DNA of 64,000 bases from Dyella sp. S184 (GTDB lineage Bacteria > Pseudomonadota > Gammaproteobacteria > Xanthomonadales > Rhodanobacteraceae): positions 532,196-596,195 of the forward strand of contig NZ_LMUE01000009.1 of NCBI RefSeq assembly GCF_009766065.1. The letters run 5' to 3'. The position numbers and the translations under genes were made by a program. Each line of letters starts with the position of its first letter. Position 1 is the first letter of the stretch. The notes below the pieces were generated by a model, which had not been told where the DNA came from, searched no databases, and worked only from the letters and a program-made list of their open reading frames with translations. Below are positions 17,223-46,068 of the stretch, piece by piece.

Positions 17223-19241
<2,019 letters not shown>

Positions 19242-19393: not shown

Positions 19394-19954
19394 ATGAGGA
19401 TTCGCAGGAATTCCGGACTGCAGCACAAACAGCGCGGCGTGACCCTGATCGAGCAGATCATGGTGCTCGTCATCGTGACGGCCCTGACCTGTGTGGCCGT
19501 TCCACCCCTGCGGCAGCTATTGGGCCGAAACCAGCTGCAGGTCGCCCAAACGGATTTCATCTCGGCATTGCAGCACGCACGCGAAGCCGCGATCACCACC
19601 GGGAAAAGCACCGTGTTCTGCCCGACCCGCGACGGCACCAGTTGCATCGACGCCGCGCGCTGGGACAGCGGCTGGCTGCTTGGCCACGACGCCGATCACA
19701 ACAATCAGCCCGACCACGGGCCGCTGTACAGCGGAAGCGGTTACGCCGGCAAACTGATCATCCAGAGCAGCAGTGGACGGCACTACGTGCGCTTTCGCCC
19801 CGATGGCAGTGCAAGCGGCAGCAACATCACCCTGGTGTTCTGCCAGCGCTCCAGCGCACAGCAGGCGCTCAGCGTGGTGGTCTCCAACTCCGGCCGCGTC
19901 CGCGGCGCTCCGGCCAGTGCCAGCCAGGCTGCTGACTGTGCGCAAATGAATTGA
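19394..19954 (+). CDS. type IV pilin-like protein (GspH/FimT family)
   Basis: The 186-residue product has a type III prepilin signal: basic leader ending KQRG, cleavage before VTLIEQ with glutamate at +5, then a hydrophobic helix (MVLVIVTALTCVAVP). The body, with LQVAQTDFISALQHAREAAI and the later WDSGWLLGHD, matches the GspH/FimT domain of minor pseudopilins. Four cysteines in the globular part may pair. Minor pilins prime assembly of type IV pili or type II secretion pseudopili. Here it stands alone, without other pil genes. Confidence 0.85.
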   Translation: MRIRRNSGLQHKQRGVTLIEQIMVLVIVTALTCVAVPPLRQLLGRNQLQVAQTDFISALQHAREAAITTGKSTVFCPTRDGTSCIDAARWDSGWLLGHDADHNNQPDHGPLYSGSGYAGKLIIQSSSGRHYVRFRPDGSASGSNITLVFCQRSSAQQALSVVVSNSGRVRGAPASASQAADCAQMN

Positions 19955-19980: not shown

Positions 19981-20005
19981 AAAAGCCGGCAATCTGCCGG
20001 CTTTT
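19981..20005 (+). terminator. Rho-independent terminator after the pilin gene
   Basis: There is an 11-bp perfect stem (aaaagccggca / tgccggctttt) with a 3-base loop. It works in both directions. Before the islet inserted it probably also ended the tRNA-Asn transcript, because the tRNA remnant starts only 8 bases further on. Confidence 0.85.
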
Positions 20006-20012
20006 GCCAATC

Positions 20013-20047
20013 TGGCGCCCGAAGCTGGACTCGAGCCAGCGCCCCCC
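20013..20047 (-). repeat. displaced 3' end of tRNA-Asn (left attachment-site copy)
   Basis: These 35 bases match the 3' end (CCA, acceptor and T arm) of the intact tRNA-Asn at 21195-21229 at 33 positions, with the first 22 bases identical. The rest of a tRNA is missing. This is the footprint of site-specific integration into a tRNA 3' end. Confidence 0.85.
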
Positions 20048-20066
20048 GAGTAGAGATTTCAACGTA

Positions 20067-20077
20067 TTGCGACAGTT
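20067..20077 (+). repeat. arm-site-like repeat, copy 1 (9/11)
   Basis: TCGATTTACAC differs from TTGATTTATAC at two positions. It lies 20 bases inside the left tRNA-derived repeat. A role as integrase arm site is inference. Confidence 0.4.
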
Positions 20078-20130
20078 CGATTTACACAAAAACGCCTGGA
20101 TCTGCACGCGATTATCAAGGACTTGGCGAG

Positions 20131-20141
20131 TTGATTTATAC
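20131..20141 (+). repeat. arm-site-like repeat, copy 2
   Basis: TTGATTTATAC is identical to the copy at 21137-21147 near the right end of the islet, in the same orientation. Confidence 0.45.
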
Positions 20142-20427
20142 GGAATGGGGGTGCGCAGATACAGCTAAGAACCAAGATGTACACGAGGCCGGATGGAAGC
20201 ATCGCAGCCGATTCGCCGCGATACGATCTGACGGACTTTGACCATAACGCAGCGCATGCGTGCACCCTAATGATTCCGCTGGATCGCTGCGAATCGCCAG
20301 TGCATGCAGCTCACCCCGAAACTGTCTTGGCGCTGGCCGCAGGACAGATGGTGTAATAGGGATATGCTGGCACTCACTCCGCAGGCGTAGCCGGCGCCTC
20401 GTCAACCTGAAAGGTGACTAAGATGGC

Positions 20428-21123
20428 ATGCCCGCTTGCCCGCGAATTAGCATGAGAATTCCACATCGGCAAGCACACGTTCTGCTCGCCGCGCTATTGT
20501 TCAGTGCAAACGCTGGCGCCGAAACGCCCGTCACAATTGTCATGTACGGCGACTCAACAACTTGGGGCAAGACGCTCCTGCATGGTGCGTATTCGCAGTC
20601 GCCGACGAATGAGCCGGGCGAGCTTCAACGCATGTTCGATGAAGCGGGGGAGCATGTCGTTGTCAAGAATCGAGGGGTCAGCGGACTGAGCTGCCTAGAT
20701 TTTTTGCAAGGCAGGCCATTCCACGGCCTGGACGCTTGGGATGTCGAAATGAAGCGCTCAAACGCTGACATCGTTGTGATGAATGTGGGGATCAATGATG
20801 TATTGCTTCGTCCTGGCGCAGGCATTTCAGACTGCTACGCAAGGCTTTCGGCAATCGCCAAGGCAAACGGCAAAATCTTCGTGATCGAGACACCGAACCC
20901 CGTTGCCTATTTCTGGAATGCCCGCGTCGGTCGAGTTGCGGCGCAAGGGCGAGATGCCGGCCTGGTCGTAATTGACCAATGGACGGCCATTCAGAAGATA
21001 CCCAATTGGCGCTCCATGCTTTCAGACGGCGTACACCCCGACGCAGCCCTGTATCAGCGAAAGGCTGCGATTTCGTTCCCGACACTGGACGGCATCGTTA
21101 AAAGCGTCACCAAGACCCGGTAA
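20428..21123 (+). CDS. exported SGNH/GDSL-family hydrolase
   Basis: This 231-residue protein has a signal peptide (VLLAALLFSANAGA, cleavage before ETPV). SGNH block I is MYGDSTTWG with the nucleophilic serine, block III is MNVGINDVL with the oxyanion Asn, and block V is DGVHPDA with the catalytic Asp and His. Such enzymes deacylate carbohydrates, lipids or thioesters in the periplasm or outside the cell; the substrate here is unknown. The start is ambiguous: ATG 20428 has aaggtg 11 bases upstream, ATG 20452 gives a tighter signal peptide. It is the only gene in the tRNA-Asn islet, and its composition is lower in GC than the neighbours. Confidence 0.85.
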   Translation: MPACPRISMRIPHRQAHVLLAALLFSANAGAETPVTIVMYGDSTTWGKTLLHGAYSQSPTNEPGELQRMFDEAGEHVVVKNRGVSGLSCLDFLQGRPFHGLDAWDVEMKRSNADIVVMNVGINDVLLRPGAGISDCYARLSAIAKANGKIFVIETPNPVAYFWNARVGRVAAQGRDAGLVVIDQWTAIQKIPNWRSMLSDGVHPDAALYQRKAAISFPTLDGIVKSVTKTR

Positions 21124-21136
21124 CCCCTGCTGGTGA

Positions 21137-21147
21137 TTGATTTATAC
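21137..21147 (+). repeat. arm-site-like repeat, copy 3
   Basis: TTGATTTATAC, identical to 20131-20141, lies just inside the right end of the islet between the hydrolase stop and the tRNA terminator. Confidence 0.45.
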
Positions 21148-21152
21148 AGCGG

Positions 21153-21186
21153 CCAAAAATAAGGCCCTGCATCGCTGCAAGGCCTT
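21153..21186 (-). terminator. terminator of tRNA-Asn
   Basis: The stem aaggccctgca / tgcaaggcctt has one mismatch and a 4-base loop. On the minus strand it is followed by ATTTTTGG. It lies inside the islet, so the element brought its own terminator when it replaced the tRNA 3' end. Confidence 0.8.
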
Positions 21187-21194
21187 GGTATAAC

Positions 21195-21271
21195 TGGCGC
21201 CCGAAGCTGGACTCGAACCAGCGACCCCCTGATTAACAGTCAAGTGCTCTAACCAGCTGAGCTATTCGGGC
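21195..21271 (-). tRNA. tRNA-Asn (GTT anticodon)
   Basis: This is a 77-base cloverleaf with encoded CCA. The acceptor is GCCCGAA/TTCGGGC with discriminator G, the D stem GCTC/GAGC, the anticodon loop CTGTTAA with anticodon GTT, and the T arm GCTGG-TTCGAGT-CCAGC. The tRNA is intact, with its 3' end supplied by the integrated islet; the old 3' end lies at 20013-20047. Confidence 0.96.
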
Positions 21272-21342: not shown

Positions 21343-22743
21343 TCAGCTCGTGATGACCCGATAGCACGGCACGTACATCGCGCCGCCGGGTAGCTTCATG
21401 CGGTGCTGTTCGACGAACGCCTGCAGCAGTTTGTCGAGCGCACGCATGATGTCTGCATCGCCGTCGATCTCGAACGGGCCGGACTGCTCGATCGCCTGCA
21501 CGCCCTCTTCCTTTACGTTGCCCGCGACGATGCCGGAGAAGGCGCGACGCAGATCCGCCGCCAGTTCATGCCGCGGACGATCGCGATGGATCTGCAATGC
21601 ACGCATGGCCTCGTGGGTGGGACGGAACGGCGTCTGGAATACCAACGGGATCTGCAATGCCCAGTTGAAGAAGAACGCATCCTTGGTGTCCAGCCGATTG
21701 TGGCGCACCTTGTCGATGCCTTTCACCATCGCCCGCGCCACCGAAGCCGGATCATCCACAATGATCTGGTAGTGCTGCGCCGCTTCGTCGCCGAGAGCCA
21801 GCCGCAAGAAACGGTCGATCTGCTCGAAATATGCAGCCGATTGCCGCGGGCCAGTGAAGATCAATGGGAACGGCGTACCAGCGTTGTCCGGATGCAACAG
21901 GATACCCAGCAGGTACAGGATTTCCTCGGCCGTGCCGACGCCACCAGGGAACACGATGATGCCGTGGCCCATGCGCACGAACGCCTCGAGCCGCTTCTCG
22001 ATATCCGGCATGATCACCAGGTGGTTGACGATCGGATTCGGCGATTCTGCGGCGATGATGCCCGGCTCGGTGATCCCGATATAACGGTTGTTGCGTCGGC
22101 GTTGCTTGGCGTGTGCGATGGTTGCGCCCTTCATGGGGCCCTTCATCGCGCCCGGACCGCAACCGGTGCAGATATCCATTCCTCGCAGACCAAGCTGGTA
22201 ACCGACCAGCTTGGTGTACTCGTATTCCTCACGCGAGATCGAATGGCCGCCCCAGCACACCACCAGGTTGGGGTCGATGTTCGGCTTCAGGATACGCGCA
22301 TTGCGCAGGATCTCGAACACGCCTTGGGTCAGCCCGGCCGAGCCTCCCAGGTCGATGCCGATCTGTTCCAGCTGGGTCGAGACGTAAACGATGTCGCGTA
22401 CCACCGCCACCAGCAACTCGTTGATACCGCGGATGATCTGGCCATCCACAAACGCCTGCGCCGGCGCATGGCTGAGTTCGATCTTGATGCCGCGATCCTG
22501 CTGCAGCACCTGGATATCGAAATCCGGGTACTGCTCGAGGATCGCCCGTGGATCGTCACTGACGCTACCCGAGGTCAACACCGCCAGCGCGCAGCGGCGC
22601 AGCAGCGCATGCAGGCCCGAATCACTCGCACCGCGCAGGCGCACCACTTCGTTGCGGGAAAGGATATCGAGCCCGCCGACCGGCGAGATGCGCGCGCTGA
22701 CGGTGGCTGACTTGTCGCGCGTGGCGGTGTTTGTATCGTTCAT
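21343..22743 (-). CDS. ppnN: pyrimidine/purine nucleotide 5'-monophosphate nucleosidase (PpnN, LOG family)
   Basis: This 466-residue cytosolic enzyme splits nucleoside monophosphates into base and ribose 5-phosphate and in E. coli is controlled by (p)ppGpp. The LOG core reads GCGPGAMKGPMKGA and then FPGGVGTAEEILYLLG, the nucleotide-binding signature. Flanking N- and C-terminal domains give the long PpnN (YgdH) form rather than the short LOG protein. ATG 22743 has aggag ten bases upstream. Longer starts up to 22866 would run into the terminator at 22848-22876, which argues against them. Confidence 0.93.
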   Translation of the reverse strand: MNDTNTATRDKSATVSARISPVGGLDILSRNEVVRLRGASDSGLHALLRRCALAVLTSGSVSDDPRAILEQYPDFDIQVLQQDRGIKIELSHAPAQAFVDGQIIRGINELLVAVVRDIVYVSTQLEQIGIDLGGSAGLTQGVFEILRNARILKPNIDPNLVVCWGGHSISREEYEYTKLVGYQLGLRGMDICTGCGPGAMKGPMKGATIAHAKQRRRNNRYIGITEPGIIAAESPNPIVNHLVIMPDIEKRLEAFVRMGHGIIVFPGGVGTAEEILYLLGILLHPDNAGTPFPLIFTGPRQSAAYFEQIDRFLRLALGDEAAQHYQIIVDDPASVARAMVKGIDKVRHNRLDTKDAFFFNWALQIPLVFQTPFRPTHEAMRALQIHRDRPRHELAADLRRAFSGIVAGNVKEEGVQAIEQSGPFEIDGDADIMRALDKLLQAFVEQHRMKLPGGAMYVPCYRVITS

Positions 22744-22847
22744 CCGAATCATTCTCCTGACCGCGTGGTTCGCGGCATATATTCCGTCATCAATCGTGTG
22801 CCGACCGGATAGCTTCACGCGCCGCTCCAGCACCGTCAAGCGCGCAC

Positions 22848-22876
22848 AAAAAGCCGGCGCCCACAAGGGCGCCGGC
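22848..22876 (-). terminator. Rho-independent terminator after the Oar-like receptor
   Basis: A perfect 10-bp stem (gccggcgccc / gggcgccggc) with loop acaa is followed on the minus strand by TTTTTG. It lies 24 bases after the receptor stop and separates it from ppnN. Confidence 0.9.
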
Positions 22877-36111: not shown

Positions 36112-38412
36112 ATGAGCGAAGCCAGTGATCCATCCAGAGTTGTCAACTTGAGCCAGCGGATGGACCCCGCCAGCGAGCGTGTGGGCGAGCTGCTCAACGC
36201 GGTGCGTGGCATTGCCAACCGGCGGCTGCAGCAATGGGTCGGCAACGCCTTCGAACATGTCGATGACGCGCTGTTCGACCTGGCCGAGAAGGCCGAAAAC
36301 AACGCCGCCCAGATGCACTACTTCGACGGCATGCGCGAAGTACGCAAGCGCCGCCCGGCGGTGGAGCGCAACTTCCTCGGCGCGATCAGCCGGCATCTCG
36401 GCGAACTGACCCATCCTGCGCAGCAGCAAAGCGTGCCCACGCCGGCAACCCCCGGCACCGTCGAGCTGTCACTGGTGGCCGACAACGAACTGGAAGAGTC
36501 GCTGGCCATCACCAGCATGATCAGCAAGAACGAATCGCGCCTGTCGCGCGACCTGTTCTCGGTGAACCAGCGACTGTCGGTGATCTGCGGTGGCCACAAG
36601 ATCGACGACACCAGCAACCCGGTGGCACCGGCCATCCTGTCGCAGGCATTTCGCCTCGCGCTGCAGGAGCTCAGCGCGGACATGCGCGTCAAGCTGATCA
36701 TCTACAAGCTGTTCGATCGCTACCTGCTGTCGTCGCTGGAAGAGCTCTACCAGGAAATCAACACCGAACTGGCCCGCGCGGGCGTGCTCCCGCAACTGCG
36801 GCACGAGATCGTGCGCGGTAGTGGTGCGAAAGCTGCCGCCACTGCTAGCAGCAACGCACAAGCTGCCGGGGCGGCGGCGGAAACTGCCGAGGAAGCCGGC
36901 GAGATACCGAGCGACCTGTTGCAGACCCTGCATGCGCTGTTCAGTGCCCGCCGCGGTTCCACCGGTGCCACCGTTGTTGGCAGTGGTGGGATGCCGGCGA
37001 TGCCAAGCGGCCCGTTGCCTTCGGCAAACGAATTGCTTGGTGCACTCAGCGTGTTGCAAAGCCAGATCGCCAGTGCCGGCCCGTTGCCTTACGCACAGCC
37101 CAACGACGCGATCGAACTCAGCCGCGAAGTCATGCAGCTGAAGGGACAGCTGCTGAGCCAGATTGGCGCCTTGCGTGGCGAACGTCCAAGCCATGTAGCC
37201 ACCATCGATGAAGACACCATCGACCTGGTCGGCATGCTGTTCGAATTCATTCTGGAGGACCGCAACCTCCCCGCCGAGATGCAAGTGTTGCTGGCACGGT
37301 TGCAGATCCCCTATCTCAAGGCGGCGATCCTCGACCGCAAGATGTTTGCACATCGCCAGCACCCGGCGCGCCGGCTGCTGGACGGTCTGGCCGAGCAGGC
37401 CAAGAGCTGGTCGGAGGAATCCGATCGTGACCGTCGCCTGCACGACAAGGTAAAAACGATCGTCGAGCAATTGCTGCACGATTTCGACGACGACATGGGC
37501 ATCTTCGAGCGCCTGTTGGCCGACCTGCAGCAGTTCCAGGACGTCAACAAGCGGCGTTCCGAACTGGCCGAACAACGCGTGGCCGAATCCACCCGCGGAC
37601 GCGAGAAGCTGGAGCAGGCGCGCCGCCGTGCCGCCCGTGAAATCCTCGACCGCATCGGCGAACACAAACTTCCACCACTGGTGCATGGCGTGCTGGCACG
37701 CGCATGGGCCAATCATCTGGTGCTGACCCTGCTGCGCCAGGGCGAGGCTTCGCCCGAGTACAGGAGCGCACTGCACTTCGTCGACGATCTCATCGTCAGC
37801 ACACGCCCCGCGCAGGATCCGGAAAGCCGGCAACGACTGCGGCAGATGATTCCCAGCATCGAACGCGCGCTGCGCATGGGCCTGACCAATGTGGCTTTCC
37901 AGGAACACGACATCGATCGCCTGCTGAGCCAGTTGCATGCCTACTACCGGCAGCAGCTCGGTGAAACGGCAGAGACTGGCGAGACCGTCATCGTCGACGA
38001 GGACACCGCGATGCTGGCGATCCCGGACAGCATCCAGCCGGTCATCGACCGCGACGCCGAGCTGGATGAACACGTGGACGACGACGCCGTCGTGGTGCCA
38101 CCAGATAGCCCCGAATGGCAGCAGGTCCAGGCCTTGCAGCCGGGTACCTGGCTCGAGTTCAGTCACGTCGAGGAGGCGATGACCCGCGCCAAGCTGTCGT
38201 GGATCAGCCCGATGAGCGGACGCTATCTGTTCGTCAACCGGCGCGGCCTGAAAGTAGCCGACTACTCGCCACAGGAGTTGGCTGCCTTGCTGATCGACGG
38301 CCACGCCCGCGTACTCGCCGCCAATGCGCTGTTCGATCGCGCGCTGAGCGCCATCGTCGGCCGACTCAGCCAGACAGATAGCCCTCCTGCACCTGCCACG
38401 GATACCGAATGA
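36112..38412 (+). CDS. DUF1631 family protein
   Basis: This large 766-residue cytosolic protein has no signal peptide. The family pattern is visible in LLNAVRGIANRRLQQWVGNA near the N-terminus, the central helical region (YLKAAILDRKMFAHRQHPAR, then LLDGLAEQAKSW) and the C-terminal segment WLEFSHVEEAMTRAKLSWIS with SGRYLFVNRRG. The last part looks like a PilZ-type beta-barrel but lacks a clear RxxxR motif. An Ala-rich linker sits at about 240-265. No function is established. ATG 36112 has a ggggg ribosome site. The stop overlaps nadC in ATGA. Confidence 0.88.
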   Translation: MSEASDPSRVVNLSQRMDPASERVGELLNAVRGIANRRLQQWVGNAFEHVDDALFDLAEKAENNAAQMHYFDGMREVRKRRPAVERNFLGAISRHLGELTHPAQQQSVPTPATPGTVELSLVADNELEESLAITSMISKNESRLSRDLFSVNQRLSVICGGHKIDDTSNPVAPAILSQAFRLALQELSADMRVKLIIYKLFDRYLLSSLEELYQEINTELARAGVLPQLRHEIVRGSGAKAAATASSNAQAAGAAAETAEEAGEIPSDLLQTLHALFSARRGSTGATVVGSGGMPAMPSGPLPSANELLGALSVLQSQIASAGPLPYAQPNDAIELSREVMQLKGQLLSQIGALRGERPSHVATIDEDTIDLVGMLFEFILEDRNLPAEMQVLLARLQIPYLKAAILDRKMFAHRQHPARRLLDGLAEQAKSWSEESDRDRRLHDKVKTIVEQLLHDFDDDMGIFERLLADLQQFQDVNKRRSELAEQRVAESTRGREKLEQARRRAAREILDRIGEHKLPPLVHGVLARAWANHLVLTLLRQGEASPEYRSALHFVDDLIVSTRPAQDPESRQRLRQMIPSIERALRMGLTNVAFQEHDIDRLLSQLHAYYRQQLGETAETGETVIVDEDTAMLAIPDSIQPVIDRDAELDEHVDDDAVVVPPDSPEWQQVQALQPGTWLEFSHVEEAMTRAKLSWISPMSGRYLFVNRRGLKVADYSPQELAALLIDGHARVLAANALFDRALSAIVGRLSQTDSPPAPATDTE

Positions 38413-39260
38413 GTCCACCGTCTACGGCACCGGATGCCACCTTGGTCGCCGCCGATATCGAGCGCGCCTTCGCCGAGGACCTGGGCCAGGGCGACGCGAC
38501 TGCCGAATTGCTGCCGATCGATGCCCGTGCGCAGGCCGAACTGACCTGTCGCGACTCGGCGGTGATTGCCGGCACGGCATGGTTCGATGCCTGCTTCCGC
38601 AAGCTGGACCCGGCCGTACGGATCGACTGGCAGACGCATGACGGGCAGCGGGTCGATGCCGGCAAGATCATCTGTCGCCTGTCTGGCCATGCCCGTTCGC
38701 TGGTCAGTGCCGAGCGCTCCGCGCTGAACTTCCTGCAATTGCTGTCCGGCACCGCCACGGTAACCGCCGATTATGTAGCCGCCGTCGCCGGTACCGGCGT
38801 GCGCATTCTGGACACCCGCAAGACCGTACCCGGCCTGCGCCTCGCGCAGAAGTACGCGGTACGCTGCGGCGGTGGCTACAACCACCGCATCGGCTTGTAC
38901 GACGCGATCCTGATCAAGGAAAACCACATCATCACTGCCGGCAGCATTACTGCCGCGGTGCAGGCGGCGCGTCGGCTGCACCCGAACCTGTTGCTGGAGG
39001 TCGAGGTGGAAAACCTCGATGAGCTGGCGCAGGCGCTGGATGCAGGCGTGGATCGGATCATGCTGGACAACTTCAGCCTGCCGCAGATGACCACAGCTGT
39101 GCAGCTCGCGGCCGGCCGCGTGCCACTGGAAGTATCCGGCAACGTCACTCTGCAGACGATCGGTGCGTTTGCCCAAACCGGCGTGGATTTCATCTCGGTG
39201 GGCGCACTGACCAAGCATGTGCGTGCAGTCGACCTGTCGCTACGGCTGCAGCTGACCTGA
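38409..39260 (+). CDS. nadC: nicotinate-nucleotide pyrophosphorylase (NadC)
   Basis: NadC is quinolinate phosphoribosyltransferase, giving nicotinate mononucleotide in de novo NAD synthesis. The 283 residues show the N-terminal block EDLGQGDATAEL, RLSGHARSLVSAERSALN, and the barrel motifs LDTRKTVPGLRLAQKYAV and LLEVEVENLDEL, then VSGNVTLQTI. The start overlaps the DUF1631 stop by 4 bases, so the two are co-translated. nadA and nadB are not in the window. Confidence 0.97.
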   Translation: MSPPSTAPDATLVAADIERAFAEDLGQGDATAELLPIDARAQAELTCRDSAVIAGTAWFDACFRKLDPAVRIDWQTHDGQRVDAGKIICRLSGHARSLVSAERSALNFLQLLSGTATVTADYVAAVAGTGVRILDTRKTVPGLRLAQKYAVRCGGGYNHRIGLYDAILIKENHIITAGSITAAVQAARRLHPNLLLEVEVENLDELAQALDAGVDRIMLDNFSLPQMTTAVQLAAGRVPLEVSGNVTLQTIGAFAQTGVDFISVGALTKHVRAVDLSLRLQLT

Positions 39261-39312
39261 TCCAGCTATTCACTGGCTTGCACACGGGCACCTGCGCCCA
39301 CACACTGTTGGC

Positions 39313-39723
39313 ATGAGTGATGTTTCCAACCTGCTGCTGTTGCTGGTGCTGGGCGCGATCGTCGGGCTGTGGCTGAAGCTCAGCGTCGCGCGTGAGCGCG
39401 CAATGCGGGAAGCACGGCAGCAATGCCAGCAGCATGGTCTGCAGCTGCTGGACGAGACGGTCGGCCTGCGCGGCGTGCGTCTTCGCCGCGTCAATGGCCT
39501 GCACCGGCTCGAACGCTGCTACAGCTTCGAGGTAAGCATCGACGGACACGACCGCGAACCCGGTCGCCTGTGGATGCTCGGCGACTCGCTGAGCAGCCTG
39601 AGTCTGCCAACGATCGAATTGCTGCCACCGCATGAAGCTGCTCCCGGAGCATCCCTGCCCGTCCCGACCAGCAATGTCGTGATGCTGCACTCCCGCCCAC
39701 GCACGGGTGACCGGCTACATTGA
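39313..39723 (+). CDS. DUF3301 family membrane-anchored protein
   Basis: The 136-residue product has one N-terminal hydrophobic segment (LLLLLVLGAIVGLWL). A cytoplasmic part follows (ARQQCQQHGLQLLDETVGL, RRVNGLHRLERCYSFEVS), which is the DUF3301 pattern. It is a single-pass inner-membrane protein of unknown role. It follows nadC by 52 bases and is convergent with sspB. Confidence 0.85.
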   Translation: MSDVSNLLLLLVLGAIVGLWLKLSVARERAMREARQQCQQHGLQLLDETVGLRGVRLRRVNGLHRLERCYSFEVSIDGHDREPGRLWMLGDSLSSLSLPTIELLPPHEAAPGASLPVPTSNVVMLHSRPRTGDRLH

Positions 39724-39761
39724 TCGGCCGGCATGAGCGCCGGCGCAGCATCGCGCAGCCG

Positions 39762-40217
39762 TTACTTGACCACGCGCAGATGCGGTGCGCCACGCTTGGG
39801 CTTGTCACCGCCAGCACCGGGCGCAGGTGGCGTGTCGTCGGGTTCCGGGGCTGACGGAGGCGGCATGTCACCACCACCCTCTTCTTCATCAGCCGGAAAC
39901 ATCATGCCCTGCCCATTTTCCTGGGCATACAACGCCAGGATTGCCTGCACCGGGATGTGGATGGTCTGGCTGGCACCGGAAAAGCGCGCCTGGAAACTGA
40001 CCCACTCGTTGCCCAGATCCAGACTTGCGACCGCACGCATGGCGAGATTGAGCACGACCTGACCGTTCTTGATCACCTGCGGGGGCACCTGCACACCCTT
40101 GAAAGTGGCGTCGACCAGCACGTAGGGCGTGAGATTGTTGTCACTGATCCAATCGTAGATCGCCCGCAGCAGGTACGGGCGATTGGAGCTCATCGGCACG
40201 GTTTCATTCTTGCTCAT
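39762..40217 (-). CDS. sspB: ClpXP specificity-enhancing factor SspB
   Basis: SspB delivers ssrA-tagged and other substrates to ClpXP. The 151-residue protein has the substrate-binding domain (SNRPYLLRAIYDWISDNNLT, then YVLVDATFKGVQVP and GQVVLNLAMRAV), a flexible Pro/Glu-rich linker, and a C-terminal ClpX-binding tail (RGAPHLRVVK). The start overlaps the end of sspA by 14 bases, the usual sspA-sspB arrangement. Confidence 0.95.
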   Translation of the reverse strand: MSKNETVPMSSNRPYLLRAIYDWISDNNLTPYVLVDATFKGVQVPPQVIKNGQVVLNLAMRAVASLDLGNEWVSFQARFSGASQTIHIPVQAILALYAQENGQGMMFPADEEEGGGDMPPPSAPEPDDTPPAPGAGGDKPKRGAPHLRVVK

Positions 40218-40842
40218 GGAGTTGCCGCATTACCTTTTCTTGGTCGGTCATGCTGCGCGCAAAACCCTGGCTGTGGAACAGGCGCTCACCATAATCGATG
40301 ATCGGCTTGCCTTCACGGCCCAGGTCGACCCCGAGCCAGGGCAGCCGCCAGATTACCGGCGCCACCAGGCAATCGGCCAGGCTCATTTCCGGATTGAGGA
40401 AGAATTTTGACGCCTTGAACAGCGGCAAAGTGGACAATAGTTGCTCGCGCAGGCGCTTGCGCGCGGCCTCGACCGGGCGACCACCGGCACGGATGGTATC
40501 CACCTCAGGCAGCCAGTCCTTCTCGATGCGCACCGCCGCCACGCGCAGGCGCGCGCGCGATTGCGGGTCGATCGGCATCAGCGGTGGATGCGGGTAACGC
40601 TCATCGAGGTATTCGCAGACCACGGCGGTGTCGAACAGGGTGAGATCACGATCGATCAGGGTTGGCGTGCTGGCATAGGGATTGAGGTCGATCAGATCCT
40701 CCGGCGGCTTGGCCGGATCGACCAGCACCCGTTCATAGCTGACCCCCTTGGCGGCCAACACCAACCGCGCGCGATGACACTGGATGTCATCCGCCGTGGT
40801 GTAGAGCGTCAGTACGGTACGTGAGCGAACGCTTTGAACCAT
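40204..40842 (-). CDS. sspA: stringent starvation protein A (SspA)
   Basis: This 212-residue glutathione-S-transferase-like protein lacks catalytic activity in E. coli and binds RNA polymerase during starvation. The N-terminal thioredoxin-like part is TLYTTADDIQCHRARLVLAA, with VDPAKPPEDLIDLNPYASTP and TLFDTAVVCEYLDERYPHP following, and the C-terminal part is helical. ATG 40842 was chosen over GTG 40848. It follows petC on the minus strand, the order seen in many beta- and gammaproteobacteria. Confidence 0.94.
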   Translation of the reverse strand: MVQSVRSRTVLTLYTTADDIQCHRARLVLAAKGVSYERVLVDPAKPPEDLIDLNPYASTPTLIDRDLTLFDTAVVCEYLDERYPHPPLMPIDPQSRARLRVAAVRIEKDWLPEVDTIRAGGRPVEAARKRLREQLLSTLPLFKASKFFLNPEMSLADCLVAPVIWRLPWLGVDLGREGKPIIDYGERLFHSQGFARSMTDQEKVMRQLHEQE

Positions 40843-40865
40843 GCGCACTTCCTCATCGATGAGAC

Positions 40866-40894
40866 GACTGCGGCGGCTCGTGGCCGCCGCAGTC
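40866..40894 (-). terminator. hairpin between petC and sspA
   Basis: A 12-bp perfect stem (gactgcggcggc / gccgccgcagtc) with a 5-base loop sits just after the petC stop. No T tract follows on the minus strand, so it may stabilise the pet mRNA or pause transcription rather than end it. Confidence 0.5.
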
Positions 40895-40912
40895 GGATGA
40901 TCCCTGGCGGCG

Positions 40913-41641
40913 TCAGTGGACGTCCTTCCAGTATTCCTTCTTGAGCATGGCGGCCAGCAAGGTGAAGAACGCCAGGAACAGCAGCACCCAGATGCCGTAA
41001 TGATGGCGCTGCAAGGCGGCCGGCTCCGAAGCGTATTCCAGGAAGCTGGTCAGGTCACGAGTAGCCTGCTGGTACTGCGCCGGCGTCAGCTTGCCCGGCT
41101 TGGTCAATTCCAGTTTCTCCACCTCGTCGGTACCCGGCTTCATCACCGCCGTCTGCATCCCTTGCAGCTCCCACAGCGGGAACGGCATGGCGGCATTCGG
41201 CAAGGTGGTGTTGTTCCAGCCGATCGGGCTTTTCGGATCCAGGTAGAACGTATTGAGGTAGGTGTAGACCCAGTCTGCACCCTTCGCACTCACTTCCAAC
41301 GACAGATCCGGCGGCGCCTTGCCGAACCACTTGCCGGCCGACTCCGGCGGCATGTGCGAAACAATCGGGTCGTCGAACCTGGCGCCGGTGAAATCGAGGT
41401 TCTGCATCACTTCCTGTTCGGACAGGCCCAGGTCCTCGGCGATGCGCGAATAACGCACATACTTCAGCGAGTGGCAGCCGACGCAGTAGTTGAAGAACAG
41501 CCTGGCGCCACGCTGCAGCGAGGCTTGGTCGCGTACGTCGGAGCCGGACTTGAGCAGCCCGCCTTCGCCTTCGGCGTGCGCCGGCATGGTGCCAACCAGC
41601 AGCCCGAGCGCCAGCGCGGCCGAGGAGAGGAAATGCTTCAT
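40913..41641 (-). CDS. petC: cytochrome c1 of the bc1 complex
   Basis: The 242-residue product has a signal peptide (FLSSAALALGLLVGTMPAHA), heme-binding NYCVGCHSLKYVRYSR (CxxCH), the region around LPNAAMPFPLWELQG that supplies the axial methionine, and a C-terminal membrane anchor (YGIWVLLFLAFFTLLAAML). Cytochrome c1 passes electrons from the Rieske protein to soluble cytochrome c at the periplasmic face. ATG 41662 is an alternative start that overlaps the petB stop; 41641 gives the tighter signal peptide. Confidence 0.96.
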   Translation of the reverse strand: MKHFLSSAALALGLLVGTMPAHAEGEGGLLKSGSDVRDQASLQRGARLFFNYCVGCHSLKYVRYSRIAEDLGLSEQEVMQNLDFTGARFDDPIVSHMPPESAGKWFGKAPPDLSLEVSAKGADWVYTYLNTFYLDPKSPIGWNNTTLPNAAMPFPLWELQGMQTAVMKPGTDEVEKLELTKPGKLTPAQYQQATRDLTSFLEYASEPAALQRHHYGIWVLLFLAFFTLLAAMLKKEYWKDVH

Positions 41642-41654
41642 CGTGATCTGCCGC

Positions 41655-42956
41655 TTAGTCATGCATCGTCACCCGATCAGGAACCGGCTTGGTCTTTTCC
41701 CAGCCGAAATGCGTGTAGGCCCAAAGGAACGCGAAGAAGCCGAAGTAGAGCAGGGTCATCAGACGGCCAAACGCGTTTTCCCAGGTCGTCAGGTCGACAT
41801 TGCCGAACCACTCGGGGATCACTTCGGCGGTGATGCCGGCTCCGACTGCGCCGAGACCGAGGAACGCGATCACGAACACGCCCAGCGCCACCTTGTAACC
41901 GGTGCCGCGGTAGCGGATCGACTTGACCTGGCCGCGGTCGAACCACGGAAACAGGAACAACACGGCTATCGCGCCGAACATCGCCAGCACACCCCACACG
42001 GCCGTGCCGAATAACGACGGGATCATGCGCACGATCGCGTAGAACGGAGTGAAGTACCACACCGGCTTGATCTCGGCCGGAGTGACCAGATTGTTGGCCA
42101 TGATCGAGTTGTCGTGCTCGAGGAACCAGCCACCGAAGGTCGGCGCGAAGAAGATGATGAAGGCCGCGATCAGCAGGAAGAAACCCACGCCGACCAGATC
42201 CTTCACCGTGTAGTACGGGTGGAACGGAATGCCGTCGGCCGGCTTCAATGCGTCCCAGCGGTTGCCCTTGGGGCCCTTCTTGATCTCGACGCCATCCGGG
42301 TTGTTCGAACCCACTTCGTGCAGCGCGGCGATGTGCAGCACTACCAGCAGCAGCAGCACGAGCGGCAACGCAATCACGTGCAGTGCAAAGAAGCGGTTCA
42401 GCGTGGCATCGGCCGGCAGGAAGTCGCCCATGATCCATTCGACCAAGGTGCTGCCGATCACCGGGATGGTGCCGAACAGCGACACGATCACCTTGGCACC
42501 CCAGAACGACATGTTGCCCCACGGCAGCACGTAGCCCATGAACGCCTCGGCCATCAGCACCAGGAAGATCAGCATGCCGAGCAGCCACACCAGCTCGCGC
42601 GGCTTCTTGTACGAGCCGTACATGATGCCGCGGAACATGTGCAGGAACACCACCACGAAGAACAGCGAGGCGCCGGTGGAATGCATGTAGCGGATCAACC
42701 AGCCCCACTCCACGTCACGCATGATGTACTGCACCGAGTCGAAGGCTCCCGCCGCGCTCGGGTTGTAGTTCATGGTGAGGAAGATGCCGGTGACGATCTG
42801 GTTGATCAGCACCACGATCGCCAGCGAACCGAAGTAGTACCAGAGATTGAAGTTCTTCGGCGCGTAGTACTCCGTCATGTGCTTGCGGTACATCGGCATC
42901 ATGTTCGGCGCGCGCTCGGTGACCCAGTCACCGATTTTCGTGAATACGTTGGCCAT
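41655..42956 (-). CDS. petB: cytochrome b of the bc1 complex
   Basis: The 433-residue integral membrane subunit has paired heme ligands in helices B and D (RYMHSTGASLFFVVVFLHMF and FALHVIALPLVLLLLVVLH). The quinone-site segments are AFMGYVLPWGNMSFWGA and a PEx-type loop region reading PAEIKPVWYF. About eight to nine hydrophobic helices are visible. The start shares a base with the petA stop, and the stop overlaps the longer petC start. Confidence 0.97.
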   Translation of the reverse strand: MANVFTKIGDWVTERAPNMMPMYRKHMTEYYAPKNFNLWYYFGSLAIVVLINQIVTGIFLTMNYNPSAAGAFDSVQYIMRDVEWGWLIRYMHSTGASLFFVVVFLHMFRGIMYGSYKKPRELVWLLGMLIFLVLMAEAFMGYVLPWGNMSFWGAKVIVSLFGTIPVIGSTLVEWIMGDFLPADATLNRFFALHVIALPLVLLLLVVLHIAALHEVGSNNPDGVEIKKGPKGNRWDALKPADGIPFHPYYTVKDLVGVGFFLLIAAFIIFFAPTFGGWFLEHDNSIMANNLVTPAEIKPVWYFTPFYAIVRMIPSLFGTAVWGVLAMFGAIAVLFLFPWFDRGQVKSIRYRGTGYKVALGVFVIAFLGLGAVGAGITAEVIPEWFGNVDLTTWENAFGRLMTLLYFGFFAFLWAYTHFGWEKTKPVPDRVTMHD

Positions 42957-43561
42957 TACGCAGCTCCCTTCGGATCCACACCAATCTGGATGGTCGAATC
43001 GTCAATGAAGTTATATGGCGGGATTTCCATGTTCTTCGGCGCCGGTACCCCTTGATAGACGCGACCGGCCATGTCGTAGCGCGAGTGATGGCACGGGCAG
43101 TAATAGCCACCTTGCCAGTTCGGATCGAACGGCTCCGGCTTCATCTCGCCCACGAAGTTCGGTACGCAACCCAGATGGGTGCAGATACCCACCATCACTA
43201 GCCACTCGGGCTTGATCGAACGGGTCTCGTTCTGTGCATATTTCGGCTGCTGCGCGGCCGAGCTGCCGTCCGACTTCGGATCGACCAGCCGCGGGTCCTG
43301 CTGTGGCAATGCCGCCAACTGGGCCGGCGTGCGATTGACGATAAACACCGGCAGGCTGCGCCAGCCCACGATCAACTGCTGACCAGGCTCGATTTTTTTC
43401 AACGACTGGGTAACCGGAGCACCAGCGGCCTTCGCACGCGCGCTGGGTTCCCACGACTTGATGAAGGGCACAGCTGCCGACACGATTCCAAGACCACCAA
43501 CCACCGCAGTGGTTGCTGTAAGGAAACGGCGGCGGCCGTGATCGACGACTTCGTTCGCCAT
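42956..43561 (-). CDS. petA: ubiquinol-cytochrome c reductase, Rieske iron-sulfur subunit
   Basis: The 201-residue product has an N-terminal twin-arginine-like segment (GRRRFLTATTAVVGG) and membrane anchor, and the two cluster-binding boxes CTHLGC and CPCHHSRYD (two Cys and two His ligate [2Fe-2S]). It is the first gene of petABC. ATG 43561 matches bacterial Rieske starts; the frame stays open further upstream with no family resemblance. It is divergent from the DegS-like protease gene. Confidence 0.97.
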   Translation of the reverse strand: MANEVVDHGRRRFLTATTAVVGGLGIVSAAVPFIKSWEPSARAKAAGAPVTQSLKKIEPGQQLIVGWRSLPVFIVNRTPAQLAALPQQDPRLVDPKSDGSSAAQQPKYAQNETRSIKPEWLVMVGICTHLGCVPNFVGEMKPEPFDPNWQGGYYCPCHHSRYDMAGRVYQGVPAPKNMEIPPYNFIDDSTIQIGVDPKGAA

Positions 43562-43718
43562 CAGGCTCTCCGGTACTTGCACATGGTGGGATTTTGGGCC
43601 CCGCAAAAATCGCGTTAGTGTAGCGTCAGGCCCTGCCCCGTACAATAAAACCGCATCCCGGCGAAAGCCGATCCGCCGTGACCCTCGCCATGATTTGCCG
43701 GAACCCTCTTCTTTCGAC

Positions 43719-44900
43719 ATGAAACATGCCGCCGGCACGCTTGCCTTCATCGCCCGCTTCGTCGTCCTCGGCCTGGCGGTAGCGTTCGTGATCAGCCTGT
43801 TCTGGCCCGGCAGTGGCGAGCGTCTGCGCGCGCGTTTCGGCCTGACCACGCCGCCGTCCTCATCGACGGCGGTCGCCACGCATACGGTCAACGGCCCGGT
43901 TTCATACGCCGACGCGGTGGCCACCGCGGCACCCTCGGTGGTGAACATCTACGCCAACAAGGTCGTCACAGAGCCAGCCGTACGGATGTACGACAACCCG
44001 GTGCTGCAGCAATTGTTCGGCGGCCAGCCCACGACTTACCAGCATAGCGAGCAGACCCTCGGCTCCGGCGTCATCGTCAGTGCGCAGGGTCAGGGCTACG
44101 TGCTGACCAACAACCACGTGATCGCCCACGCCTCCGACATCCAGGTGCTGCTGTACGACGGTCGCGTCGCCAAGGCCACCCTCGTCGGTGCGGACGAGGA
44201 AACCGACCTGGCGGTATTGAAGATCGACGCCAACAATCTGCCGGTGATCCAGATGGCCGACCACCAGTTGCTGCGTGCCGGTGACGTGGTGCTGGCGATC
44301 GGCAACCCGCTCGGCCTCAACCAGACCGTGACCATGGGCATCGTCAGTGCCGTGGGGCGCCAGTTGAACAGTACCAGCCCCGAAGAGTTCATCCAGACCG
44401 ATGCCGCCATCAACCTGGGCAATTCGGGTGGCGCACTCATCAACACCCAGGGTGAGCTGGTCGGCATCAACACCTTGCTGATCAGCAAGACCTCCGGCGC
44501 CGAGGGCATCGGCTTCGCGATTCCGGTGGCCACCGCGCGCAAGGTACTGGATCAGCTCATCACTACGGGACACGTCGTGCGCGGCTGGCTGGGCGCCGAT
44601 TATGCGTTCGTGCCGTTGGCGGCCAACGGCGGCCTGCCGGCAGCGGCGCGCGGCGTCCAGGTCACCGAGGTCGATCCCGGGGGCCCGGCGGCGCAAGCCG
44701 GCATCAAGCCCAACGACATCCTGCTGCGCATCGGCAATGACGACATCCTCGATCCAGCCGATCTACGCCGGCGCGAAGCCGCCTTGAAGCCTGGCAGCGT
44801 AGTGAAGGTCTCCGGCCTGCGCGATGGAGTCCCGCTCCATGTCGAGGTCACCCTGGTCCAACGACCACCGACAAGCGCCGGGCCCTCGCTCGGCGATTGA
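43719..44900 (+). CDS. DegS/DegQ-like trypsin-fold periplasmic protease
   Basis: The 393-residue protein has one N-terminal membrane anchor (FIARFVVLGLAVAFVISLF). The serine-protease domain has triad His133 (NNHVIAH), Asp163 (EETDLAVLKID) and Ser236 (LGNSGGAL). There is a single PDZ domain at about 285-385 (GVQVTEVDPGGPAAQAGI). One PDZ plus anchor is the DegS layout; DegS cleaves the anti-sigma factor RseA in the envelope stress response. No rseA is in the window, so the substrate is inferred. The gene ends one base from the convergent transglycosylase gene. Confidence 0.92.
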   Translation: MKHAAGTLAFIARFVVLGLAVAFVISLFWPGSGERLRARFGLTTPPSSSTAVATHTVNGPVSYADAVATAAPSVVNIYANKVVTEPAVRMYDNPVLQQLFGGQPTTYQHSEQTLGSGVIVSAQGQGYVLTNNHVIAHASDIQVLLYDGRVAKATLVGADEETDLAVLKIDANNLPVIQMADHQLLRAGDVVLAIGNPLGLNQTVTMGIVSAVGRQLNSTSPEEFIQTDAAINLGNSGGALINTQGELVGINTLLISKTSGAEGIGFAIPVATARKVLDQLITTGHVVRGWLGADYAFVPLAANGGLPAAARGVQVTEVDPGGPAAQAGIKPNDILLRIGNDDILDPADLRRREAALKPGSVVKVSGLRDGVPLHVEVTLVQRPPTSAGPSLGD

Positions 44901-44901
44901 T

Positions 44902-46068
44902 TCAGCCGCGTCCGCCCGCGGCAGCCAGCGGTGGATGGATCACCGCGCCGTAGCGCTTGCGCAGGGTTTCCACGCGCTCTACATACACTTGGGTTTCGGC
45001 GTACGGCGGCACCCCGCTGTAGCGCTGCACCGCGCCAGGGCCGGCGTTGTAGGCAGCCGCAGCCAGTCGCTCGCTGCCGTTGAAATCATGCAGCAGCAGG
45101 CTCAGGTAACGTGCACCGCCGCGGATGTTCTGGTCGGTGTCGAATGCATCCAGCACACCCATGTCGCTGGCTGTGGCCGGCATCAACTGCATCAGGCCCT
45201 GCGCCCCCTTCAGCGACAGTGCGCGCGGATTGAACGCGCTCTCGGCATGGATGATCGCGCGCAGGAATGCCTCGTCGACTCCATACTCGATGCTGGCGGC
45301 GCGAATCGTGTCGGCGTAGGCGATCAGGTTCAGTGAAACACTACCCCAGCGGATCGTTGAGTGCAGGTCGCAGGCAACACAACTGGCGATGTAGGTGAAC
45401 AACATGGTCACGGTGTGACCTTTCTGGCCGGTTGGTTGCAGGTTGGTGTATTCCACACTGCCGTCCGCCTGCACGATGCGATAGACCGCACCGCGCAGGA
45501 CACGGGTGTCCGGTGCATCCGCGATCGCTGGCAGCGGCGCCTCGGTACCGCGAGATTCGTGATAGCTCCACTTGCCTGGTGTGCCGGTGATGGCTGTTGC
45601 CAACGGCGGCTTCGCGGTGGTTTCGACCGAACCCTGCACCGCAGCCAGTGAAACGCGCTGCACCTTCGCCTCACCGAGTCCACGCGCGCTGGTCGTGGCC
45701 GAGCCTTGAACATTGGCGAGCGCGGTCGGCCGGCTCCCATCGGCGGCAAGACTGCGCGCGGTGGTCTCGACCGAACCCGTCACCCCGATCAACGAGGTCC
45801 GTGGCGGCGGCAGTTCCTGGTGACGTGGCGCCGGCGCCGCATAGGTGCTGATCGCCTTGCAGCCGTGGTAGCCGACCTTGCTGCTGCTGAATGCCACTTC
45901 GCCGCTGGCACCGGTGCACTGGTAAAGCGTGCCGGCGCGCGCGCTGCTGCACCAGCATCCGGCCCACAGCAGCGCACAGCCCAGCCCGACCCGGAACAGG
46001 ATCGAGCGAATTGGGAAGCCCCCGGCAGGCCGATCGACGCTTCCCCCGTGGCTTGCAACGTCGAGCAT
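44902..46068 (-). CDS. lytic transglycosylase with internal repeats
   Basis: The 388-residue product has a hydrophobic, Cys-containing leader (LGCALLWAGCWCSSARAG) and two DUF4124-like segments (47-64 and 195-210). The C-terminal SLT domain (about 245-375) has catalytic Glu276 in IIHAESAFNP, then GAQGLMQLMPATA and AAYNAGPGAV. It should cleave peptidoglycan between MurNAc and GlcNAc. Between the DUF4124-like parts lie three degenerate copies of a GSVETTAR-like unit (about 94-106, 119-129, 144-153). ATG 46068 is chosen; longer starts to 46278 give unlikely sequence. Confidence 0.85.
   Translation of the reverse strand: MLDVASHGGSVDRPAGGFPIRSILFRVGLGCALLWAGCWCSSARAGTLYQCTGASGEVAFSSSKVGYHGCKAISTYAAPAPRHQELPPPRTSLIGVTGSVETTARSLAADGSRPTALANVQGSATTSARGLGEAKVQRVSLAAVQGSVETTAKPPLATAITGTPGKWSYHESRGTEAPLPAIADAPDTRVLRGAVYRIVQADGSVEYTNLQPTGQKGHTVTMLFTYIASCVACDLHSTIRWGSVSLNLIAYADTIRAASIEYGVDEAFLRAIIHAESAFNPRALSLKGAQGLMQLMPATASDMGVLDAFDTDQNIRGGARYLSLLLHDFNGSERLAAAAYNAGPGAVQRYSGVPPYAETQVYVERVETLRKRYGAVIHPPLAAAGGRG

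Follow-up and report, generated by a model that had tools for sequence, protein, structure and literature searches.

A one-gene islet at tRNA-Asn of Dyella sp. S184 is probably a grounded prophage remnant

The tRNA-Asn gene of Dyella sp. S184 is followed by an islet of 1,147 bp with a single gene, which we interpret, with a probability of roughly 0.8, as the remnant of a grounded prophage that has kept one moron-like gene. The islet was analysed within a stretch of 64,000 nucleotides (contig NZ_LMUE01000009.1, positions 532,196 to 596,195), hereafter the window. Grounded, or cryptic, prophages are described in the available part of PMC6379469 as fixed by loss of an attachment site or of the recombinase, with their moron genes kept. 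The islet resembles them in being phage-derived by its ends and in retaining a moron-like gene, but it differs from those described in that part of the source in that it has one gene in 1.15 kb and both arms are still recognisable.

In the mechanism that we favour, a temperate phage of a family targeting tRNA-Asn would have inserted at the gene, displacing the tRNA 3' end together with the old terminator and supplying a new tRNA 3' end and a new terminator, as comparison with related loci indicates. To judge from an intact provirus, a deletion would have removed nearly all of the phage, leaving the proximal arm, the SGNH gene and the distal arm, and the distal core would have lost about 21 bp, including the anticodon-loop half of the repeat, as seen in aligned distal ends. 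Without this half, where the crossover probably falls, the remnant would be locked in the chromosome. The gene that remains probably belonged to the phage as a moron and might encode an exported esterase acting on a cell-envelope ester, possibly an O-acetyl group of surface polysaccharide.

The islet and the same site in relatives

The features of the locus are as follows.

17223..19241, minus strand: uvrB, native neighbour (long open reading frame; name from reading; order the same in relatives)
19394..19954, plus strand: gspH, native neighbour past the displaced fragment (PF12019)
19981..20005, minus strand: original tRNA-Asn terminator, displaced (11-pair stem; similar stems directly after the tRNA at empty sites)
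20012..20047, minus strand: distal attachment core, the displaced tRNA-Asn 3' fragment with its anticodon-loop half missing (34/36 identical)
20048..21194, no strand: islet, 1,147 bp (low GC; absent at empty sites)
20079..20087, minus strand: candidate distal arm site GTGTAAATC (-50 from core)
20133..20141, minus strand: candidate distal arm site GTATAAATC (-104 from core, 54 bp from the other distal site)
20428..21123, plus strand: SGNH/GDSL hydrolase gene, probably exported, moron-like (PF13472, E 3.6e-14)
21139..21147, minus strand: candidate proximal integrase arm site GTATAAATC (+72 from core)
21161..21186, minus strand: element-brought terminator, now behind tRNA-Asn (11-pair stem)
21195..21271, minus strand: tRNA-Asn(GTT), complete (ARAGORN; Rfam RF00005, 71.2 bits)
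21343..22866, minus strand: ppnN, native neighbour on the tRNA 5' side (PF11892 and PF14793)

An earlier note on this DNA had described a repeated tRNA end enclosing about 1.15 kb of lower-GC DNA with a single SGNH hydrolase, an old and a new terminator and no recombinase, and each of these points held. The repeat 20013-20047 matches 21195-21229 directly at 33 of 35 positions (34 of 36 with one base added), and the second-best 35-base match in the window reaches 22/35. The displaced 3' fragment lies downstream of the complete tRNA-Asn in the same orientation, as in tRNA-integrated elements, and from the sequence the 3' part of the tRNA gene is read as the proximal attachment core. The GC content between the copies is 55.2%, against 62.9% for the window, and only 0.6% of sliding windows are as low. 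Terminator-like stems occupy both expected positions, and at the empty sites of G017, G013 and G040 the tRNA is directly followed by stems similar in sequence to the displaced one. Neither an integrase-like reading frame nor a match to a sigma-70-type promoter was seen in the islet. A search of the whole assembly with the tRNA returned 20 rows: the gene itself, a match on contig 11 (84% over 57 bases) that is probably a related tRNA, the islet copy (94%, E 2e-9) and then weaker rows. Rfam matches other than the tRNA were all below their gathering scores.

We compared the locus in relatives sampled at one genome per species, G000 being the genome that carries the islet. The tRNA-Asn adjoins ppnN in 44 of 45 genus genomes, G036 giving only weak tRNA matches. 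Empty sites, which the earlier note had suggested looking for, were found at 12 of these 44 loci, with gspH 133-183 bases from the tRNA start. At nine loci gspH is displaced, by 1.3 kb in G000, 1.5 in G035, 1.8 in G025, 4.3 in G037, 5.0 in G024, 9.7 in G026, 12.2 in G021, 15.7 in G023 and 33.5 in G016. At the other 23, no gspH was present in the stretch covered (weak pilin-like matches in G002 and G003 were scored as no gspH), and two of these, G001 and G027, have a distal tRNA fragment. When the islet was excised in silico, each of the 12 empty sites could be aligned with the G000 flank after the tRNA, along 123-139 bases and with 66-85% identity. On a tree that covers 30 of the 44 loci, of which 9 are filled, 9 are empty and 12 are unclassified, the filled and empty states need four changes, three of them forced by well-supported branches.

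Among the genomes compared, the islet itself was found only in G000. Its protein has matches in 2 of the 45 genus genomes, namely G000 and, elsewhere in the genome, a 43% relative in G042, and the gene stands at tRNA-Asn only in G000; its presence there in all relatives would have spoken against an insertion. The other such sign, a partial tRNA copy lacking the islet, was encountered in G146 alone, where it belongs to a decayed scar of about 0.2 kb, and this fits a collapse. The islet DNA matched 41 of 233 family genomes, nearly all of them through 30-50 bases at the tRNA end, and the search of these 233 genomes revealed neither a whole-islet match nor a second copy. At the DNA level, phage and plasmid records likewise returned only short matches at the tRNA/terminator end. 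In the 14 loci read besides that of G000, the islet-end stretch stands behind tRNA-Asn at 11, a truncated tRNA-Asn at two and tRNA-Phe at one. Some of these are empty sites with a similar-looking native terminator; the element is therefore marked by the arm repeats behind the terminator and not by the terminator alone.

Attachment arms, an intact provirus and the damaged distal core

The motif GATTTAYAC occurs three times in the window against 0.19 expected, always within the islet, on one strand and near both ends. A second proximal site, expected 12 bp on, is degenerate in G000. As the motif was first noticed in the islet, the independent test lies in other loci; a count over 56 loci (10 matches in 7 loci, 0.06 expected) is not independent, because part of these loci were chosen by islet-end similarity. 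Viral contigs were scanned for the 3' end of tRNA-Asn, which yielded 51 loci, comprising 33 partial and 14 full tRNAs and four that could not be scored. On the tRNA side, a 12-bp direct pair of arm sites was present in 8 of the 46 viral loci with enough sequence, and all eight encode the same integrase family; in five of them the pair follows a terminator (+73/+85 from GGTTCGAG), and in the other three there is no terminator (+40/+52). A distal pair at -124 (one at -125) and -71 was found in 8 of 31 partial viral loci with enough sequence, with a spacing of 53-54 bp against 54 bp in the islet; neither figure of eight is a count of independent loci, as some viral loci nearly duplicate each other or are opposite ends of a single contig (L173/L214, L177/L199, L181/L199 and L194/L211). 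Most of the remaining viral loci have different sequences after the core, indicating that several element types use tRNA-Asn.

Among cellular genomes, tRNA-side sites were found at +72 in G001 and G129, at +73/+85 in G108, G111 and G156, and at +71/+83 in G146; a distal site was found at -124 in G111, and none in G001, G129 or G146. The element end with its terminator also adjoins tRNA-Asn 3' ends elsewhere in the family, and five viral loci have a terminator followed by the arm repeats. A scan of viral contigs for terminator plus arms listed 21 loci, without adding to this picture. In part of the phage family, this terminator between core and arm would be a small example of an element that brings insulation for the tRNA gene it enters. 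The only other GTRTAAATC pair in the 233 family genomes, on contig 27 of G046, was set aside as a related element, since neither a tRNA nor a frame resembling an integrase lies within 1.5 kb of it. From the position and recurrence of these sites, we infer that the islet ends are attachment arms of a temperate phage family targeting tRNA-Asn, in which the repeats would serve as integrase arm sites.

An intact provirus occupies the same chromosomal site on IMGVR_UViG_2162886015_000004, a Rhodanobacter-like metagenome contig of 45,437 bases. One end (L211, bases 1-2032) carries ppnN (92%) and tRNA-Asn, and the other (L194, bases 37196-45437) carries the tRNA fragment, gspH (69%), uvrB (95%) and phage tail genes; 43.6 kb lie between the cores. 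Tail genes accompany the islet's arm pattern in L199 and L177 as well. In L211, a protein of 376 amino acids whose stop overlaps the proximal arm matches the phrog_1 integrase family (E 5e-24) and has no Pfam match; the SGNH gene of G000 runs in the same direction and stops 15 bp from the corresponding arm. The provirus thus shares with the islet the site and the proximal and distal arm motifs, with an integrase where the SGNH gene of the islet ends, but it differs in its 43.6-kb length and complete distal core, in passing from core to proximal arm without a terminator and in having no SGNH gene in the parts read. With empty sites, filled sites and this provirus at one position, the tyrosine-recombinase type of insertion that had been proposed is strongly supported, and the provirus is a larger integrase-bearing element of the kind that the earlier note had suggested looking for.

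The L211 integrase has matches in 19 of the 233 family genomes, some of them only fragments, and none anywhere in the G000 genome. Against Pfam, two members of the family gave no match at E 0.001 and two others fell below the cut-off. An interim reading from PF00589 searches, that most filled sites lack an integrase, was abandoned when the phage-integrase query found two copies in the island of G111; the absence of a PF00589 match does not mean the absence of an integrase. Further family members (L238-L247) lie near tRNA-Gln, -Lys, -Leu, -Thr or -Asn genes in other genomes, so that changes of tRNA target seem to have been frequent in the family.

An alignment of distal ends (eight rows) revealed that the G000 core is 21 bp shorter than those of its phage relatives, which accounts for the shift of the distal arm sites by 20-21 bp. 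Identity to the tRNA extends over at least 45 bases from the 3' end in 32 of 33 partial viral loci, spanning the anticodon loop (bases 39-45), whereas it covers 35-36 bases in G000; the short repeat is thus explained by the missing anticodon-loop half of the distal copy. A link between tRNA sub-site and integrase class has been reported (Williams 2002, as cited in the available part of PMC2647930). This link and the block boundary place the crossover, in our inference, within the anticodon loop, in which case the loss of that half probably leaves the islet unable to excise and stuck in the chromosome, as far as its sequence can indicate.

The retained SGNH hydrolase

Counted from its first ATG, the protein has 231 amino acids; another ATG in the same frame follows 24 bases later. 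The protein is probably exported, to judge from its N-terminus as read by eye. Its PF13472 match is above the cut-off, and the GDS, N and DxxH residues, which we take to be the named SGNH catalytic blocks, do not vary in an alignment of four proteins. Most relatives come from viral contigs or a prophage, although G042 and plasmids also have some: the closest in the family (G168, 45%) has prophage genes for tail fibre and baseplate as neighbours, 21 were obtained when viral contigs were searched with a profile, and nine plasmids carry relatives at 27-31% identity, so that the SGNH family is not confined to phages. Single-protein pattern searches of the genome and the viral contigs gave nothing useful, and four small frames between the gene and the distal arm had no PHROGs match below E 0.1.

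The nearest described counterpart is the esterase of Burkholderia phage Magia, an SGNH hydrolase that aligns with 86% of the query at 31.8% identity and is annotated as an 'outer membrane-associated lipid esterase', an activity given by annotation; it differs from the islet gene in that it lies within a complete phage and adjoins an acyltransferase. In the 21 viral relatives, G168 and Magia taken together, ORFs of opposite direction follow the SGNH stop directly in 11 cases, after one ORF in eight and after two or three in two, and none was found in L137 and L139. When ten downstream ORFs from nine viral loci were scanned, seven loci gave matches to tail fibres, L145 gave one of the structural/tail kind and L156 gave none; the SGNH gene of L149 is directly followed by an O-acetyltransferase/O-antigen acetylase. 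SGNH relatives, including that of Magia, are thus convergent with tail genes, and the orientation in the islet agrees with this if the phage gene order was kept. The gene itself was not seen in the 51 tRNA-Asn viral loci, which cover only parts of their contigs, and its phage origin is accordingly argued by analogy. The same analogy suggests that it may be a conversion gene, whose product might act as an esterase on a cell-surface ester.

Decay series and alternative readings

Islands with the same arms differ in size and content. G129 (13.5 kb) has sugar-use and regulator genes and, beside the proximal arm, a 37-residue integrase remnant with a stop; G001 (3.8 kb) has an EAL/GGDEF gene and a further ORF that matched nothing; G111 (28 kb; L115, L129) has type I restriction-modification, HipA and Fic genes and its two integrase copies, 66% and 62% identical to the phage integrase. 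G146, from another genus (L097/L110), retains a proximal arm, about 0.2 kb and a decayed distal core, with no gene-sized content. ORFs of the compared loci were called mechanically, and G033, G041, G108 and G156 were left unclassified. Because non-phage genes lie between similar ends in G001, G129 and G111, the content of such an island cannot be assumed to be phage-delivered. Within the islet, no phage gene, structural or other, and no integrase fragment is left. In our interpretation, it shows an end point of prophage decay, with one gene and two attachment arms remaining, and such remnants would be recognisable by their arm sites rather than by phage genes.

The content of these same-arm islands, which includes metabolic, signalling or restriction genes, is one reason to consider that the islet instead derives from a collapsed ICE, IME or other island, or that it is a prophage scar which the SGNH gene reached later. 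The same tRNA is also used by G027, with an integrase and a relaxase-like ORF (relaxase by reading), and by the G016 island with its distal PF00589 integrase. However, the G027-type ends differ in their terminator and lack the arm motif, whereas the islet's arm pattern accompanies tail genes in L194, L199 and L177, and the largely viral or prophage distribution of SGNH relatives, despite those in G042 and on plasmids, points the same way; we therefore regard such an origin as distinctly unlikely.

The earlier note had offered a cargo unit mobilised in trans or a collapsed island, of which the collapse stands, as that of a prophage. Mobilisation would make the islet a CIME-like element that cannot move by itself but still does so with an integrase from another phage or element, in keeping with two arms that are recognisable and positioned as in intact phages. 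In Streptococcus salivarius, according to the available part of PMC7563491, CIMEs measure 1.2-13 kb and microCIMEs, which have no genes, 130-220 bp; G000, at 1.2 kb with one gene, resembles the first size class, and G146, at about 0.2 kb, the second. As described in the accessible parts of PMC7563491 and PMC5704250, CIMEs and microCIMEs are, like the islet, deletion derivatives flanked by attachment sites; they nevertheless derive from ICEs or IMEs and keep both sites, whereas the islet has a damaged distal site and arms that match those of tail-gene-bearing phage loci. The distal core without its anticodon-loop half, the degenerate second proximal arm site, the lack of a phage-integrase match in G000 when 19 of 233 family genomes have one, and the lack of a second copy in those 233 genomes all argue against continued movement, which we consider very improbable. 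Chance similarity or an unrelated tRNA-end duplication is negligible, given the margin of the repeat over its next-best match and a coherent pattern over 44 loci with an intact provirus at the site.

Starting from the grounded prophage reading, a doubtful but wider generalization would make tRNA-Asn a domestication site in this family, where phages able to bring a terminator land repeatedly and some lysogens are reduced to a gene that modifies the cell surface, after which one attachment site is damaged and the conversion gene becomes fixed like any other gene of the chromosome. If this were true, islets of this size would be common and invisible to integrase-based island finders. According to the available part of PMC4383910, Islander rejects candidates without a PF00589 integrase and those shorter than 2 kb; as the four integrases of the phage family compared with Pfam match it below the cut-off or not at all, intact relatives may be missed too. 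Among the papers listed on Rhodanobacter genomic islands and tRNA genes or prophages, none was on the tRNA-Asn locus by title or beginning of the abstract.

Other islands were also noted in the course of the comparison. The 33.4-kb island on contig 24 of G016 (L048/L049) duplicates the whole tRNA-Asn gene and carries its integrase near the distal end. G027 (L079) represents a second island type at this tRNA-Asn, with an intact integrase beside the tRNA, and N-terminal remnants of this integrase type persist in G037 (L051, 102 residues), G031 (L059, 65) and G021 (L061, 61). On contig 1 of G156, a 40-kb tRNA-Leu island seems to end in a direct repeat; about 0.7 kb inward of this repeat, at about 3166295 (L131), there is a tRNA-Asn 3' fragment together with the terminator and a pair of arm repeats.
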